Part shown: one piece after another, positions 1-7,128 of the stretch | Layout of the letters: each line of letters begins with the position of its first letter | Position numbering within the stretch: the first letter of the stretch is position 1 | Assembly (NCBI GenBank): GCA_021129445.1 | Contig: JAJOLG010000033.1 | Span: 1-7,132 of the forward strand | Length of the DNA: 7,132 nucleotides | From: Candidatus Altimarinota bacterium | Lineage (GTDB): Bacteria; Patescibacteriota; Gracilibacteria; GCA-2401425; JAJOLG01 | Reading direction: 5' to 3' | Made by a program: the position numbers and the translations under genes | The notes under the pieces: model-generated | The model's input: only the letters and a program-made list of their open reading frames with translations | The model's database searches: none | Told to the model about the DNA's origin: nothing

Positions 1-992
1 CTAAAACCTCATCATCAATGAAATATATTTTCTACAAACGAAATAACTTTTGGAATCACTCAATCTTCTCAATCATTTGTAAAAATTGAAAAATGATTTG
101 TTTTAAATTTTATCAATCAATCTTCACAAAAAACATCAGAAATTCAATCATCTTTCCACTCTCAATTATCAAAATATTTTATAAAATTTCTATCAAAACA
201 TTTTTCAACATTAAATTCAACATCTGCTGGTTGCGATAAATAAATATGATTTTCAAAACCTCAAATTGAGATAATTTTTGATTCTGGTTTTAAATTTTTT
301 GATAAATTTTTAAAAACTTCTTTGTTTAATTCCTTTGGCGGTAAAAACATTCAAGTAAAATTTTTAAATTCAAGTCATTTTGGAAATTTTACTTTTGATC
401 AAGTTGATGAAATTTCTAAATCAAAATTTAATTTTTTAGATTCAATTAAAACAGGTATGTCCACTGCAACAAATCAAGTTTTTGAAGAAATTTTTACAAT
501 ATTTTTAATATTTTCTCAAATCTTTTCTCAAAAATAATTTCAAAAAATTTGGTTTTCTGTTGAAAAATTTCAATCTAAAATATTTTCTTTTTTAGAAAAA
601 ATTATTTTTAAAAAAATTTCATTATTCGGAATTTCTAAAAAATTTTTATCCAAATCAGAAAATTTTTTATGCCATATAAAAAAAATTTTATCATCCTTTT
701 CAAAAAAATTTTCTAAATGCAAAAATTTTTCATTTACAAAAACTCATTCAGTTTGAACGTTTTCAAAAATAAATTTCGAATTATCAAAAAACAAATCAAA
801 TTGAAATCATGCAATTTGATTTTCAAGATTAAAATTTTGTGCTCTTAAATTTAAAATAAAATTTCAATCTTCAATTTCTTTTTCTAAAATTATCTTTGGA
901 GAAAAATCAACTTGAACAAAATCGTCAGCAAAAACTTTTTCTTGCATAAATCAAAAAATTATTACAAAAAATAAAATTTTAATTCTCCACAT
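1..992 (-). CDS. Secreted cohesin-like surface protein, C-terminus beyond the window
   Basis: Translated with UGA as glycine, this frame is open for 330 codons from ATG at 992 to the window edge. Residues 1-22 form a signal peptide: basic start WRIK, hydrophobic core, and a VFA cleavage site before DD. Residues 25-150 look like a cohesin beta-sandwich, with IAGFQFDLFFD at 60-70 and later KIFFIW, the pattern of the cohesin GGFQFxLxYD strand and its following 'I-S-F-x-W' strand. Residues 165-310 are a second, unassigned beta-rich part that ends in TNHFSIFT (298-305), a closing strand often seen in bacterial surface proteins. A glycine run (326-329, three encoded by TGA) begins what may be a linker. 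The start overlaps the end of the upstream gene by 14 bases, which suggests translational coupling. Export and beta-sandwich character are solid; the cohesin assignment is my reading of motifs. The missing C-terminus could hold a dockerin or an anchor. Confidence 0.72.
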
Positions 993-2070
993 TTCACATT
1001 CTAACTTTTGTAAAAATTAAATTTCAGGTAGAAGTTTGTAAATTATTTAAATCAAAAGATGTTTTTACATTTCATAAATTTTGACAAGACACATTTCAAA
1101 GTAAAAACTTAAAATTTCATGACGGCAAAGGTGTATTTTGAGACAAATATCTTCTAATTTTTATAATATCTAAAACTGAAATTTTTCAATCTCAATTTAC
1201 ATCAGAAGCTACACAATTATATCAATTTGTGAATTCCTCAGATTTTATAATATTTTTTTGAATTTTCAAAATATCGCCTGTTCAAACCGTATTTTCCTCA
1301 TATCAATCAATAATTCAAGCGGTTAATTCAAAATTTTGTCATTTAACAAGATATCAAAACAAATATCATACTGAATTTGAAATTTCTTCTAAAATGGAAT
1401 TATCTGTTTTATTTTTCAAAAAAATTTTTCATCATGTAAAAATTGTTCAATCTGGATTTAAAATTTTTCCTCAAATTGTTAAATTTTCTTGAATAAAAAA
1501 TGTTTTTACATCTTCCAAATTATTTGATAAATCATTTCAATTTCAATCTCAAAGCTCATTAATTTTTAAAACCAAATTTGATCAATCTCAAATATTTCCA
1601 ATAACAGAACAATTAAAATCAAGAATTTTTCACGATCAAAAACTCAAAACTCAATTATTATTATCGTCCCAAACTAAGGAAATAAATCATGTTCAAAAAT
1701 TTACCTCTGAGCTTCATAAAGTTAAAACAGCTTTTTTATCCAAATTTTGACAATTTAATTGAGAACTATCATAATTTAATTCCAATTCAAATCATCAGAT
1801 ATTATTGAAATTTTCTACTAAAACTGGAATTTTAATATTTGTTCAATTAAATCAAATTAAATTTTTTTCTATTTGAATTGATGTACAAGTTCATCAAGAA
1901 CAAGCGATTTCTTCATAAGTTCAATAGAAAACTTTTAATGCATCATATTCAGAAAAATCAGATGTTAAACTTAAATCAATTTCATTTCACGCTAAATCTT
2001 TAATTCAAATTCAAGCATTATTTTTCACTCTTAAATCAGAATTTATTCATTTATTAATGGTTAATCCAGT
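979..2070 (-). pseudogene. C-terminal part of a split surface protein: cohesin, CarboxypepD_reg-like and dockerin domains
   Basis: This is the continuation, in the same frame, of the gene that starts at 2430, after an in-frame TAA at codon 120. Numbered on the whole frame: residues 121-160 finish the N-terminal Ig-like domain (ending GIKDLAGNEIDL). Residues 178-315 are a cohesin-type domain with IKIPVLVENFNNIGGFELEL around 200-218, then a YD and an 'ISLVWDD' strand. Residues 317-374 resemble a carboxypeptidase-regulatory-like fold (TIGGKILNPDGTIFTGGKI). Residues 383-425 are a dockerin: a degenerate first half GDILKIQKNII and a canonical second half DVNGDGKISVLD (410-421) followed by IIKIRRYL. 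The tail ends NVEN. No ATG follows the stop until four codons before the end; a GTG at codon 135 could start translation but would give no signal peptide. So this part is probably not exported unless the stop is read through or is a sequencing error. Domain calls rest on visible motifs. Confidence 0.75.
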
Positions 2071-2430
2071 TTATGTTTTATAAAAATTTGTAATTGTGAC
2101 TTTTAAAATATTTCATTGAATTATTTCTGAATTTAAAATATCAGAAGAAATATCAGCGGCCGACGAAACAGAGTTTTCTTTAAATCATCAAGCTTGCGAA
2201 GCAATCCTAAAAACAGATTTTACCAAAGTTCAAGTTAAAGTTTCATTAAATTTTATATAAATCGTATCTATCTTATTATTTCAATCTGAATCAAAAAATC
2301 TTAATTCCTCTGCTGTGGGTGGTGTAGTATCATCTGCATTTACAAAAAATATTCATTGAAAAATGAGAATTCAAGTAATAATTCATCAAAAAAATTTCTT
2401 AAAAAAATTTTGTTTAAACACTATTTTCAT
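2071..2430 (-). CDS. N-terminal fragment of the split cohesin-dockerin protein (119 aa, signal peptide)
   Basis: ATG at 2430 opens a 119-codon frame that ends at TAA 2071-2073. Residues 1-32 are a signal peptide: a basic N-region with two KK/FKQ stretches, a hydrophobic core GIITGILIFQGIFF and a VNA cleavage site before DDTTPP. The mature part contains DSDGNNKIDTIYIKFNETL (48-66), the pattern of Ig-like surface domains with a 'D-x-D-x-N-x-x-I-D-x-I' loop followed by a beta strand. The domain is cut at FYKT and resumes as TGLTI directly after the stop in the same frame, so this is half a fold and not a natural end. The start lies about 33 bases downstream of a good sigma-70 type promoter. Expressed alone, the fragment would be exported but probably would not fold. 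It could also be the start of one intact protein if the TAA is an assembly or sequencing error. Confidence 0.65.
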
Positions 2431-2577: not shown

Positions 2578-2604
2578 AAAAAAAACCTCCATCAGGAGGT
2601 TTTT
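2578..2604 (-). terminator. Intrinsic terminator of the ribosomal protein operon
   Basis: AAAAACCTCC (2581-2590) and GGAGGTTTTT (2595-2604) form a perfect 10-bp stem with a four-base loop. On the minus strand the stem runs directly into a further run of U before ATTAATG. It begins 9 bases past the rpsI stop codon. Its GC-rich core stands out in very AT-rich surroundings. The shape is symmetric, but no plus-strand transcript is evident that would need it. Confidence 0.9.
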
Positions 2605-2612
2605 AATTGTAA

Positions 2613-3074
2613 TTATCTCTTAACCCAAGTAGAAGCTTTTCTCGCTCTTTTTAATCAAGGTTTTTGTCTTTCTTTTGTTCTATCATCTCTTGTAATTTGA
2701 TCTTCCTTTTTCAAGATAGATTTTAATGATTCATCAGAAACTAAAAGCGCTCTTGCAATTCAGTGTCTCACTGCATCAGCCTGTGAAAACATTCATCATC
2801 ATTTCACTTTAACTGTAAAATTAAAATCTTTTACTTTTCAAGTTTGAACAAGTGAAGATTTAATTAATTCAAGTAAATGAACAACTGATTGAAAATATTT
2901 TTCAACTGATAATCAGTTTACAATAATTTCTCATTTTCATTTTTCATACATTCTAATTCTTGCAATTGAAGATTTTCTTTTTCAAGTTGCATTGTAATAT
3001 TTTCAAGAATACAAAGAATGCATATCTTTTGACTCTTTTCTGTCTACTATTTTTATTTTTTTAACTGTTTTCAT
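2613..3074 (-). CDS. rpsI: 30S ribosomal protein S9
   Basis: S9 is a component of the small-subunit head; its C-terminal tail reaches the P-site tRNA. With UGA as glycine the protein has 153 residues. The conserved blocks are YYNATGKRKSSAIRIR (26-41), TVKVKGGG ending at 94, QADAVRHGIARALL, TRDDR and the basic tail KPGLKRARKASTWVKR. All three glycines of KGGG, and those of RHG (105) and KPG (140), are TGA codons, which are the strongest recoding markers in the window. The ATG at 3074 lies 2 bases after the rplM stop, pointing to coupled translation of the usual L13-S9 pair. The alternative ATG at 3023 would give 136 residues, nearer the usual family length of about 130, so the first 17 residues are uncertain. 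It is the last gene before the terminator. Confidence 0.96.
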
Positions 3075-3076
3075 AA

Positions 3077-3505
3077 TTAAATATTTAGCATTTCTGGTTT
3101 TTGAGCTTCAAATTTGTGATCTGTTCAAGTAACAAGTTTTAATCTTAACATTATTCATTTTTTCAACTTATTATTTGGAAGCATTCACGCAACAGCATGT
3201 TCTAATGGGAAAGTTGGAATTTTTTCTAGTCTATCTTCAAGAGTAAATGTTTTTAAACCATCTTTTGCATATCTCGAATGTCTGTAGTATTTTTTATCTA
3301 ACATTTTATTTCATGTAACATGAAATTTATCAGCATTTTGTACTATAACATAATCTCAAGTATCAACATGAGGTGTAAAATCTGCTTTATTTTTTCATCT
3401 TAAAACTTTTGCAATTTCCACTGCAAGTTTTCATAGAGTTTTTCATTCAGCATTAACAATATACCATTTTCTATTTTCCGGTTTTTTAGCTACGAAAGTT
3501 TTCAT
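3077..3505 (-). CDS. rplM: 50S ribosomal protein L13
   Basis: L13 is an early-assembly protein of the large subunit that binds 23S rRNA. The 142-residue product has the usual family length and blocks: KWYIVNAEGKTLGKLAVEIA (13-32), GDYVIVQNADKFHVTGNK (50-67), KKYYRHSRY, the L13 signature HAVAGMLPNNKL (103-114) and the ending FEAQKPEMLNI. Gly107 in the signature and Gly65 are TGA codons; Trp14 is TGG, which rules out UGA as tryptophan. The start is 21 bases after the rplQ stop, and the stop is 2 bases before rpsI. The usual 'HSGYPGG' loop reads HSRYAKDG here, a mild divergence. No Shine-Dalgarno sequence is visible before the ATG. Confidence 0.96.
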
Positions 3506-3526
3506 CTATTTTTATATATTAATGTT

Positions 3527-3880
3527 CTAAACTAATTGTAATACAACTTTTTCTGCACCATCTCATGGCCTTGCTCAAAGTTTAACAATTCTTGTAAATC
3601 AAGACTGTCTATCTTTATATTTATCATGTAATTCATCCAAAATAATTTTAGATGCATCTTCTCAATAAAGATGTTTTTTAAGATAACGAATAGCATTCAT
3701 TTTATCTTTTCATTTTGTTCTTGCAATCATTTTATCAACAGCAGAAGCAGTTACCTTTGCTTTTACTTTTGTTGTTTCTATTGTTCAAGATACAATTAAA
3801 GCAGTAGATAAAGATCTAATTAAAGCTTTTAATTGAGCTGAATTCCTATTAATTCTTGTATTTTTAACTTGGTGTCTCAT
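3527..3880 (-). CDS. rplQ: 50S ribosomal protein L17
   Basis: L17 is a large-subunit protein near the peptide exit tunnel and normally follows rpoA, as here. The 117-residue product opens MRHQVKNTRINRNSAQLKAL, the family's N-terminal block, then has IETTKVKAK (34-42). It ends RPGDGAEKVVLQLV, matching the 'RxGDxAxxxxxELV' end of the family. Gly106 (the GD glycine) is TGA. It is the only gene here that ends in TAG, which shows that both UAG and UAA still terminate. The 61-base gap from rpoA includes a TATAAT hexamer at 3891-3896 on the minus strand but no convincing -35 element, so an internal promoter is only possible. Confidence 0.95.
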
Positions 3881-3941
3881 AATTTTTATATTATACTAAC
3901 TGTATAAAGTAATTTATAAATAAATTTTTTACAAACTTATC

Positions 3942-4907
3942 TTAATCTCAAAGTAATTTCATTCATTTTTTTGCAAGTGCATCTGAAACTTCATCCATTG
4001 CTTTCTTTCAGAAACCTCTAAATGTTCATAGTTTTGCTCTTGAACATTTTAATAATTCTTCAACTGATCAAATCTCTGCATTCAATAAAGCATTTAACGA
4101 TCTTGGTGATAAATTAAGAATTTCAATTGGAGTATAAATTTCTTTTTGTTCTTCTTGTTCTACCATTCAAGTTCTAGAAAAATCACTTACAAAATCTTCT
4201 TCAATAATCTCTTCTTCTTCATTAAATAAAGCAAAATATGAATTTAAAATATTTGAAGAAAATTTTAATGCATCAATTGATTCCATCGATCAATCAGTTT
4301 CTATTTCAATTTTCAATTCATCAAGGTTCATCATATCTCATACCCTGATTTGATCTACATCATATTTAACTTTTTGAACTGGAGAAAAGTTTGCATCAAT
4401 AAATATAAATTCAGATAAATCATCGTTTGTATTATTTTTTCTTTCTTTAACTGGAACATATCAAACTCATTTTTCAACCAATAAAGTCATTTCAAAATCT
4501 GTATTAGATGAAATTTCTGTAATTACAAAATCTTTATTTAAAACTTCAATATTTGCAGATGTTTCTATATCTCATGCAGTTATTGTTCAAGCTCATTTTT
4601 TCTTTATTGTCACAAATTCAGCATCTTTTCAAGATTTTTTAAATCTAACAAGTTTTAAATTTAAAATAATATCTAAAAGTGAATCTTTTATTCAATCAAC
4701 TGTTGAATAATCATTAGTAGCTCATTTTAATTTTACTGCAGTAATAGCAACTCAAGGAAGTGATGATAACAAAACTCTTCTTAAAGAATTTCACAATGTC
4801 ATTCAATATCAATTTGGAAGTGGTGAAAGTGTAAACAAAGAAGTATTATTTCATAAGTCTTCTGTATTAAACTTTGGTTTACCTATTGTTTCTTGAATTA
4901 TATGCAT
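3942..4907 (-). CDS. rpoA: DNA-directed RNA polymerase subunit alpha
   Basis: Alpha dimerises to scaffold RNA polymerase assembly; its C-terminal domain contacts UP-element DNA and activators. The 321-residue protein has the N-terminal domain block SPLPNGYGMTLGNSLRRVLL (28-47), GATNDYSTVDGIKDSLLDII, the insert strand GAGTITAGDIE, VEKGVGYVP and VDQIRVGD. A C-terminal domain follows (about 258-321: LNLSPRSLNALLNAEIGSVE, GFGKKAMDEV). Arg269 and Asn272 fall where E. coli alpha has the UP-element contacts Arg265 and Asn268. Glycines of GYG, LGN, LPG and VDG are TGA codons. The linker (229-257) is strongly acidic. The ATG at 4907 fits the family N-terminus, lies 48 bases after rpsD and has no Shine-Dalgarno sequence. 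The order rpsK-rpsD-rpoA-rplQ is the standard alpha operon. Confidence 0.97.
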
Positions 4908-4955
4908 AATAAAAGTGGTTTAATGTTAGTAAATTATATTTAATTTTATAATTTA

Positions 4956-5546
4956 TTATCTTGAATAATACTCAATTATTAAATGTGTTTTAATAGATTG
5001 TTCCATTTCATCAGCATTTGGAATTTCTACAATTTCTACAGATTTTCATTTATTATCTCATTTTAACCATTTAAACATTGGTTTAATATCTAAATTTTCA
5101 AATAAAGATGATTTTTTTAATTTATCTCTTAAAGATAAAACATCTCATTTTTTTACTTGAATTGATGGAATTGTAATTTTTCTTCAATTTAATAAAAAAT
5201 TTCAATGTGAAATCATTTGTCTAGCTTGTGTTCTAGAAACAGCTAATCAAGCTCTATAAATAATATTATCAACTCTTAACTCAATTTGTCTAATAAGCTC
5301 TTCTCATGTAATATTTGCAGATTTAACTGCTTTTTTATAATACATTTTGAATTGTTTTTCAGAAAGTCAAAAAGTATGTCTTGCAATTTGTTTTTCTCTT
5401 AATTGCATTCAATATTCTGATCTTTTTTTGAAAAACTTATTTTTTCAAGCTCTTTTTGCTATTATATTGTCAATCTTTGGAAGTCAAAATACATTAACTC
5501 ATAAAGATCTTGAAAGTTTTGCCTTTGAACCAAGAAATCTTGCCAT
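4956..5546 (-). CDS. rpsD: 30S ribosomal protein S4
   Basis: S4 is a primary 16S rRNA-binding protein that nucleates assembly of the small-subunit body; in many bacteria it also represses its own operon. The 196-residue product has the N-terminal GSKAKLSRSLGVNVFG segment and REKQIARHTFGLSEKQFKMY (50-69). The S4 RNA-binding domain reads RVDNIIYRAGLAVSRTQARQ (91-110), HGNFLLNGRKITIPS and VKKGD, and the protein ends HLIIEYYSR. At least 13 glycines are TGA codons, including those of RAG, SHG, LNG and KKG. The N-terminus lacks the four-cysteine zinc motif found in some S4 proteins. The start at 5546 lies 12 bases after the rpsK stop. The plus-strand open frame at 5347-5562 is only its antisense shadow. 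Confidence 0.97.
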
Positions 5547-5558
5547 ATTTTTATATTA

Positions 5559-5942
5559 TTAAATTCTTCTTACTCATTTTTGTCTACAACCATTATGAGG
5601 AATTCATGTAACATCAATTATTCAATTAAGTTCAAGTCATCATAAAATTAATCATCTAATTGCTTGCTCTCTTCATGGTCATATTCATTTTACATATACC
5701 ATTGCATCTTCAAATCAAAATGCTTTTGCTTTTTCCATTGCATTTTGTGCTGCAACTTGTCAAGCATAAGGAGTTGATTGCCTTGCTCATTTAAATCAAG
5801 AAGCTCAAGCTGTTGACCAAGTAATAACATCTCATTTTTTATCAGTAATTGTTACAATTGTATTATTGTAAGATGCATAAATATACACTCTTCAAGAACG
5901 AATATTTTTCTTTACTCTTTTTTTAGTATTTTTAATTCACAT
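5559..5942 (-). CDS. rpsK: 30S ribosomal protein S11
   Basis: S11 lines the small-subunit platform near the mRNA exit and the E site. The 127-residue product has RSGRVYIYASYNNTIVTITD (15-34), VITWSTAGASGFKGARQSTP (39-58), GQVAAQNAMEKA, VYVKGIGPGREQAIRGL and the family ending DVTGIPHNGCRQKGVRRI. TGA encodes glycine in SAG-like turns and in both glycines of GPGRE, and is even the second codon (ATG TGA). Trp42 is TGG. Gly113 replaces the proline common in 'DVTPIPHNGC'. Two TAA codons in a row end the gene (5556-5561), a tight double stop. It follows rpsM by 18 bases. Confidence 0.97.
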
Positions 5943-5960
5943 ATGTATTTTTTAAAAATA

Positions 5961-6338
5961 TTATTTTTTCTTTCAAGCTATTGCAACTCATCTTCTTCAA
6001 GATTTTTTCTTACGAGTTTTTGCATTAGTTTTAGTGTTTTGTCATCTAACAGGTAGTCACATTTTGTGTCTTCTTCATCTGTAAGATCAAATTTGTTGAA
6101 GTCTTTGAATATCCAAAGCTACAGATCTCTTTATATCAGATTCTGTATCAACTTTATCAAGTTCTCATCTGATTTTATCTAAATCAGCTTCACTTAACTC
6201 TTTAACTCTTAATTCTGGATTAACTTTAGTAGTTTCTAAAATTTTTGCAGATGTAGTTTTTCAAACTCACATAATATATGTAAGTGAAAATAAAACTTTT
6301 TTATTATCCGGTATATTTACTCAAGCTATACGAGCCAT
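5961..6338 (-). CDS. rpsM: 30S ribosomal protein S13
   Basis: S13 sits at the top of the small-subunit head, contacts 16S rRNA and the P-site tRNA, and forms bridges to the large subunit. The 125-residue product opens MARIAGVNIPDNKKVLFSLT, then YIMGVGKTTSAKIL (helix-two-turn-helix segment). The C-terminal block reads GSYRGRRHKMGLPVRGQNTK (84-103), followed by the usual RGQ-NTKTNAKTRK tail and a basic end AGKKK. The glycines of IAG, MGVG, YRG, MGLP and VRGQ are TGA. It starts 23 bases after rpmJ and precedes rpsK, the conserved order. No Shine-Dalgarno sequence precedes the ATG. Confidence 0.97.
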
Positions 6339-6361
6339 AATATATAAATATTAAATATTAA

Positions 6362-6475
6362 TTAGATTTGTCTTTGTTTGTGCTTTTTAGTTGCACAAAT
6401 AACTCTAACAACTCATTTTCTTTTTATCACTTTGCATTTTGGGCAAATTTTTTTTACTGATGCTCTTACTTTCAT
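6362..6475 (-). CDS. rpmJ: 50S ribosomal protein L36
   Basis: L36 is the smallest large-subunit protein, a zinc-ribbon that packs against 23S rRNA. The 37-residue product is MKVRASVKKICPKCKVIKRK followed by GVVRVICATKKHKQRQI. It keeps the full zinc set Cys11, Cys14, Cys27 and His32, so it is the zinc-binding type. Gly21 is TGA. Length and start match the family exactly. It lies 23 bases before rpsM and 133 bases after infA; that spacer is about 95 percent A+T, with seven G or C bases by my count. Confidence 0.97.
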
Positions 6476-6608
6476 AATTTTCTGATTAGTAATTTGAAAA
6501 TTTATTTTATTAAAAAAATTTTTTATTATCTAAATTTTTTTAAAATTATTTTTTTATTTTATAAAAATTTTATTTATACAATAAAATTTTTAAATAACTA
6601 AATTTTTT

Positions 6609-6896
6609 TTATTCTGTTAAAAAATCTTGTAAATCTTGATCATCTTTTAATTTTTGATCATTCCATCATCTAAATCTAGTGCTTATCCTTCATTTATCTA
6701 AACTATATGGAGAAATTTCAACTTTTACCAAATCTCATAATAAGATTTTTATGTAATGCATTCTCATTTTTCAATTAATTTGACATAAAATTTCTAGTCA
6801 TTCAACTGCTCATTTTAAAACTTTAACTTTAAAAGATGCATTTCATAAACATTCTATAACCTCTCAAAGTACAATAATTGAATCGCTTTTTGCCAT
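6609..6896 (-). CDS. infA: Translation initiation factor IF-1
   Basis: IF-1 is an OB-fold protein that binds the 30S A site and helps IF-2 and IF-3 select the start codon. The 95-residue product shows the family core in order: VLGEVIECLGNASFKVKVL (9-27), CQINGKMRMHYIKILLGDLV (38-57), KVEISPYSLDKGRISTRFR (58-76). Glycines of LGE, LGN, NGK, LGD and KGR are TGA codons. Most IF-1 proteins have about 72 residues and end near 'RITYRxK'. This one continues with GWNDQKLKDDQDLQDFLTE (77-95), an acidic extension. The ATG at 6896 gives the standard MAKSDSI N-terminus. It is the first protein gene after the 5S rRNA, 85 bases downstream. Confidence 0.95.
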
Positions 6897-6932
6897 TTAG
6901 TTTTGATATTAAATAATTTTTAATTTAAAATA

Positions 6933-7128
<196 letters not shown>

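Follow-up and report, generated by a model that had tools for sequence, protein, structure and literature searches.

A cohesin and a dockerin in one predicted chain of a UGA-glycine bacterium: a possible non-cellulosomal surface adaptor with an in-frame TAA inside its gene

The window analysed in this study, a whole contig of 7132 bases from a genome of 673 kb (77 contigs, 94.8% complete), carries on its minus strand a gene, P0001, whose product is predicted to consist of a signal peptide, an Ig-like domain, a single cohesin, probably a carboxypeptidase-regulatory-like domain, and a single dockerin. We give a probability of roughly 45% to the reading that this product is a secreted, monovalent and non-cellulosomal surface adaptor, whose dockerin would sit in an anchored cohesin and whose own cohesin would take another dockerin protein; from the sequence we infer its secretion, its partners, the direction of assembly and a role in cell contact. 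All of these parts share one frame (2430-979), but a TAA in this frame cuts the cohesin and the dockerin off from the signal peptide, and the full-length protein may not be made at all.

P0001 and the next gene, P0003 (992-3), are both encoded on the minus strand and overlap by 14 nt. A perfect 10-bp hairpin (AAAAACCTCC-ATCA-GGAGGTTTTT, 2581..2604), seen directly in the sequence, stands between this pair and a ribosomal protein operon, identified from its translations, which together with a 5S rRNA occupies 2613-7100. The original prediction that UGA is read as glycine was right, as TGA accounts for 2596 of the 3096 glycine codons in the long ORFs of the ~165 kb of the genome surveyed.

The whole P0001 gene spans 979..2430 as a single frame of 484 codons under code 25, with the TAA (2071..2073) at codon 120. 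The stretch 979-2070 had been taken as the whole protein, which proved wrong, because the gene starts at 2430: the ORF 2070-979 (-) opens right behind the TAA and is in frame with an upper ORF of 119 residues, which comprises the signal peptide (MKIVFKQNFFKKFFGGIITGILIFQGIFFVNA, 2335..2430, predicted by eye from the translation) and the first part of the Ig-like domain (1942..2319). Near the beginning of the lower ORF the sole candidate start among ATG, GTG and TTG codons is a GTG at codon 15, and a product started there would lack a signal peptide. The Ig-like domain, so named from its appearance and with no Pfam match in P0001, has matches with E values of 7e-11 to 1e-7 in four genomes of the same class (G033, G065, G090 and G078), where it is unbroken and the TAA column is occupied by Leu or Lys. 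Behind the TAA the frame stays open for 363 codons, and such a run has a chance probability of ~1e-8 at this base composition (24% GC), so the lower frame is not a chance frame; the codon-position composition is alike before and after the TAA. All other in-frame coding ORF pairs one stop apart in the ~165 kb surveyed have an ATG at most 37 codons from the second start, which leaves the TAA of P0001 as the sole split of a coding frame with no start codon nearby. A second stop-separated frame (L047:193) was set aside as a shadow ORF. Judged from their sequence, the ORFs above and below the TAA are one gene that has been split, because the domain is continuous over the TAA position in four relatives, no start is near the lower ORF and the split is unique in the survey. 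The case also serves as a warning that, in recoded genomes, an ORF call may begin in the middle of a gene.

Because the rest of the frame is intact, the TAA would be a very recent nonsense mutation, a strain variant, an assembly error or, least likely, a site of readthrough. Read as assembled, the gene would yield no more than its first 119 residues. It is possible, though doubtful in our view, that the gene is truly broken, so that only a secreted Ig-like fragment is made and the cohesin-dockerin part is a young pseudogene; the position of the TAA in a domain that the four relatives keep unbroken, a second half with no nearby start except a GTG that leaves no signal peptide, and the lack of a second such split in the ~165 kb all agree with this, but the 363 further stop-free codons at 24% GC with cohesin and dockerin intact speak against it, and a minor strain allele or an assembly error would look alike. 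An assembly or consensus error, with the gene intact in the organism, would fit the fragmentation of the assembly into 77 contigs, the codon-position composition common to both halves and the undamaged state of the remaining frame; substitution errors are, however, uncommon in an assembled consensus, and we consider this explanation possible but doubtful as well. Programmed readthrough of the UAA, by which a little full-length adaptor would be made alongside the short secreted form, appears very improbable: the TAA is in frame and the frame downstream is intact, but UAA is normally the least leaky stop, it lies here within a folded domain, it is a single occurrence and no relative retains a stop at its position.

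The original prediction of a cohesin (1471..1884) was confirmed. Against Pfam PF00963 the ORF scored 28.1 bits and the isolated module 31.8 bits, both above the cut-off of 24.1, and a structure model built on an alignment with 25 relatives (query residues 1-150) folded into a nine-stranded jelly-roll with pLDDT mostly 75-92. In searches with this model by Foldseek and VIA-align, cohesins ranked first and the best matches were scaffoldin cohesins, with 4uyp_A as the best structural match (Z 15.1, rmsd 2.4 over 132 residues); the Archaeoglobus cohesin 2xdh reached Z 13.6. The alignment-based model is reliable for the cohesin only, the dockerin and the linker being of low confidence, and a single-sequence prediction of the ORF was discarded (pLDDT 31). 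The Pfam cohesin appears in the shorter ORF or in the module alone and is missed in the full joined protein and in a relative of 1307 residues, so its absence from such full-length scans was not counted as evidence. Searches of genome_contigs and viral_contigs yielded no close relatives of the ORF.

The dockerin (1138..1308, Pfam Dockerin_1 26.9-27.2 bits) scored 25.7-27.2 bits over all scans with PF00404, above the cut-off of 22.9. The original prediction held for its second loop, DVNGDGKISVLD (1168..1203), which is canonical. The first loop, DGYEENTVGTGD (1273..1308), is degenerate: positions 1 and 12 are kept, and positions 3 and 9 have lost their usual residues. The dockerin region of the model forms two helices at low confidence. 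The carboxypeptidase-regulatory-like domain (1309..1488) had also been proposed before and has no Pfam match in P0001 itself, but a relative supports it indirectly: a subtilase of the same class (G085) aligns with residues 355-482 of P0001 (29% identity, E 1.3e-6) from a point inside the proposed domain, and the subtilase has a CarboxypepD_reg match (~1e-10) at the corresponding place, just ahead of its dockerin-like region. This C-terminal region common to both proteins overlaps the domain, which we call tentative to probable. The tail behind the dockerin (982..1137) ends in KVRMGNVEN, to be compared with KMGDVNKSW in the subtilase. Neither a catalytic domain nor a cellulose-binding module was seen in P0001.

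P0003 (3..992 on the minus strand) is predicted to be secreted and runs off the contig. It carries a weak cohesin module (483..923), recognised by Pfam at 18.7-20.8 bits, below the cut-off of 24.1, and by a profile that includes P0003 itself. The dockerin that had been attributed to the neighbour was not seen: the part of P0003 before the contig end has the weak cohesin and no dockerin. Any anchor of P0003 would lie beyond that end, and no contig continuing it was found; there were no close relatives of P0003 among 192 relatives. A profile of twelve sequences, with P0001, P0003 and a protein on contig C12 all among them, found these same three cohesins in the genome. The C12 protein has an fn3-like domain and a C-terminal tail composed of QTGP, a membrane helix and RKK, and its cohesin is also below the Pfam cut-off (21.7 bits). 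The dockerin search gave two candidates, P0001 and, on contig C5, the last part of an Ig-repeat protein of 1164 residues, which scored 14.4 bits, below cut-off, and has two loop-like stretches. Neither of the two lies in a glycoside hydrolase in this 94.8% complete genome, and because the search revealed no dockerin-bearing glycoside hydrolases, the system does not count as a cellulosome. The earlier suggestion of surface assembly in place of cellulose breakdown is supported by both dockerin candidates and by the lack of a visible catalytic domain in P0001.

If P0001 is an adaptor, its dockerin would most likely plug into an anchored cohesin, either that of P0003, which is probably co-transcribed, or that of the membrane-anchored C12 protein, and its cohesin would take up the dockerin of a further surface protein, for which the Ig-repeat protein on C5 is a candidate. 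Linked in this way, the proteins would form a short chain at the cell surface that depends on calcium and plays no part in cellulose degradation. The adaptor reading is favoured by a cohesin and a dockerin that both exceed their Pfam cut-offs, by the Z score of the cohesin fold (15.1), by the 14-nt overlap of P0001 and P0003, by candidate anchored partners in the genome (the C12 membrane tail), by the gene pair in relatives and by the protease with a dockerin-like end beside an anchored cohesin in G085. Against it stand the degenerate loop 1, the scores of P0003 (20.8 bits) and C12 (21.7 bits) under 24.1, the loss of the end of P0003 at the contig end, the fact that P0001 is no orthologue of the chains of its relatives, and the TAA in the gene.

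Two other readings of the dockerin were weighed against the adaptor. The dockerin might bind the cohesin of its own chain and cap it, or that of another copy and so form a head-to-tail polymer. This would make sense of both partners on one chain and of the small number of candidates elsewhere in the genome, which holds three cohesins and two dockerins in all, but relatives of the same layout usually have a membrane-anchored neighbour as a possible receptor, the known adaptor scaffoldins have differing specificities in their own cohesin and dockerin (PMC4959524), and the structure model is confident for the cohesin only; we think self-association unlikely. Rather unlikely, too, is a dockerin-like module that acts together with the carboxypeptidase-regulatory-like domain as a calcium-stabilised C-terminal fold and not as a ligand of cohesins. 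The degenerate loop 1 points that way, as does a similar module in proteins of two genomes (G113 and G114) that carry a type IX secretion sorting domain outside a cellulosome context, but in G085 the gene for an anchored cohesin comes directly after that for the protein with the similar module, and a gene with a weak cohesin lies next to P0001 on its downstream side. The adaptor remains our preferred reading of P0001.

The original prediction had looked to related genomes for the same architecture, and there the two modules do share one chain. At an E value of 0.001, cohesins were found in 150 and dockerins in 99 of the 353 genomes of the class, and a common architecture was a lamin-tail domain (LTD), a cohesin, an fn3-like domain and a dockerin. 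Among 22 aligned members of this lamin-tail family, Pfam recognised LTD and cohesin in all, fn3 in 12 and the dockerin in 4. We also inspected 25 loci of the family from named Peregrinibacteria, Peribacteria, Abawacabacteria and Gracilibacteria genomes, which partly overlap the 22 aligned members, and all of them (25/25) encode a lamin-tail-cohesin-(fn3)-dockerin chain with two canonical 12-residue dockerin loops. The next gene, present at 24 of these loci, encodes 159-300 residues, lies at most 250 bp away in 22/24 and ends in a C-terminal membrane helix, again in 22/24. Pfam saw a cohesin in 7 of 21 such small neighbours, and their profile resembled P0003 weakly (probability 60%); a PDB search with the profile gave no match, so their cohesin nature rests on the Pfam matches and on the weak profile similarity. 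In the relatives the next gene usually encodes a small protein with a C-terminal membrane helix, in which the cohesin is weak where Pfam recognises one, so the dockerin may naturally pair with this neighbour rather than with the cohesin on the same chain.

The lamin-tail family resembles P0001 in its chain of ~500 residues, which is predicted to be secreted and bears a single cohesin and a single dockerin near the C-terminus; the gene downstream is small and of the cohesin type, though weakly so in P0003, whose C-terminus falls beyond the contig end. The family differs from P0001 in the N-terminal and linker domains and in having two canonical dockerin loops. In a profile comparison only the cohesins aligned, and P0001 had no LTD match and no fn3 domain; lacking the N-terminal and linker domains of the family, it is not a member or an orthologue. 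The C-terminal module of P0001 is rarer and was found in three other genomes of the class. In G085 (L149:3825-10359 (-)) a cohesin gene lies 40 bp downstream of the subtilase, which has CarboxypepD_reg and a dockerin-like end; the product of the cohesin gene has three S-layer homology stretches, which are anchoring domains.

Several further arrangements were observed in the class. In the genomes of family f6 (e.g. G258:C4, G246:C19, G245:C7 and G026:C5) a dockerin frame of ~110 residues lies within ~0.5 kb of a cohesin frame of ~500 residues, so the modules also occur as neighbouring genes. A cohesin-fn3 protein with a membrane tail recurs together with a Q-S-G-P protein at three loci (L051:4998-7083 (-), L053:4493-7042 and L052:4019-6654), two of which also have a small cohesin-like lipoprotein; the Q-S-G-P motif plus membrane helix in which the second protein ends looks like an anchoring tail of the sortase type or a similar kind. 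At L147:1086-4505 and L148:4766-7534, in two genomes where nearby genes read UGA as glycine, the gene for a dockerin protein that has a type IX secretion sorting domain is free of TGA codons, whereas several to many TGA occur in the superoxide dismutase- and thioredoxin reductase-like genes on its flanks. This gene looks like an acquisition from Bacteroidota that has stayed at the same place in both genomes.

Many bacteria of the class are presumed epibionts or predators with small genomes. The class may use a two-tier scaffold of anchored cohesin, adaptor and dockerin-bearing cargo, by which host-contact proteins would be assembled on the surface without covalent links, a proposal that we regard as speculative. 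The class-wide gene pair is of more interest than the single protein P0001, and the conserved pair, a possible anchored receptor with a plug-and-socket adaptor, offers concrete modules for binding tests on how such ultra-small bacteria build their host-touching surface.

The literature searched contained no paper on a cohesin/dockerin system of Gracilibacteria or Peregrinibacteria, although an earlier description may exist. The combination of the two modules is not unusual in itself, as it is found in adaptor scaffoldins (PMC4959524, PMC3413522) and in ANME archaea, where a dockerin occurs with up to five cohesins on a single chain (PMC9012536). Like P0001, the proteins of ANME archaea and Archaeoglobus are cohesins and dockerins outside cellulose degradation (PMC9012536, PMC9705933), whereas P0001 is bacterial and has a single cohesin and different partner domains. 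Non-cellulosomal dockerins of Omnitrophota have been proposed as adhesins (PMC10066038). The dockerin protein SEML1_0315 of an epibiotic Patescibacterium is described as envelope-associated and essential; that organism belongs to a lineage different from the source of P0001, and the parts of the report considered here describe no cohesin partner (PMC10633639). A close parallel in layout is offered by the adaptor scaffoldins, which are defined by a cohesin and a dockerin on one chain (PMC4959524, PMC3413522). Unlike them, P0001 has no cellulose-binding module, no dockerin-bearing glycoside hydrolases were seen in its genome, its anchoring partner is a predicted one and one of its dockerin loops is degenerate. 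Like A. cellulolyticus ScaB and the monovalent adaptors, P0001 would combine a cohesin and a dockerin in one secreted, non-catalytic chain (PMC4959524, PMC3413522), and the layout of adaptor scaffoldins would then reach into a lineage in which no role in cellulose degradation is apparent.
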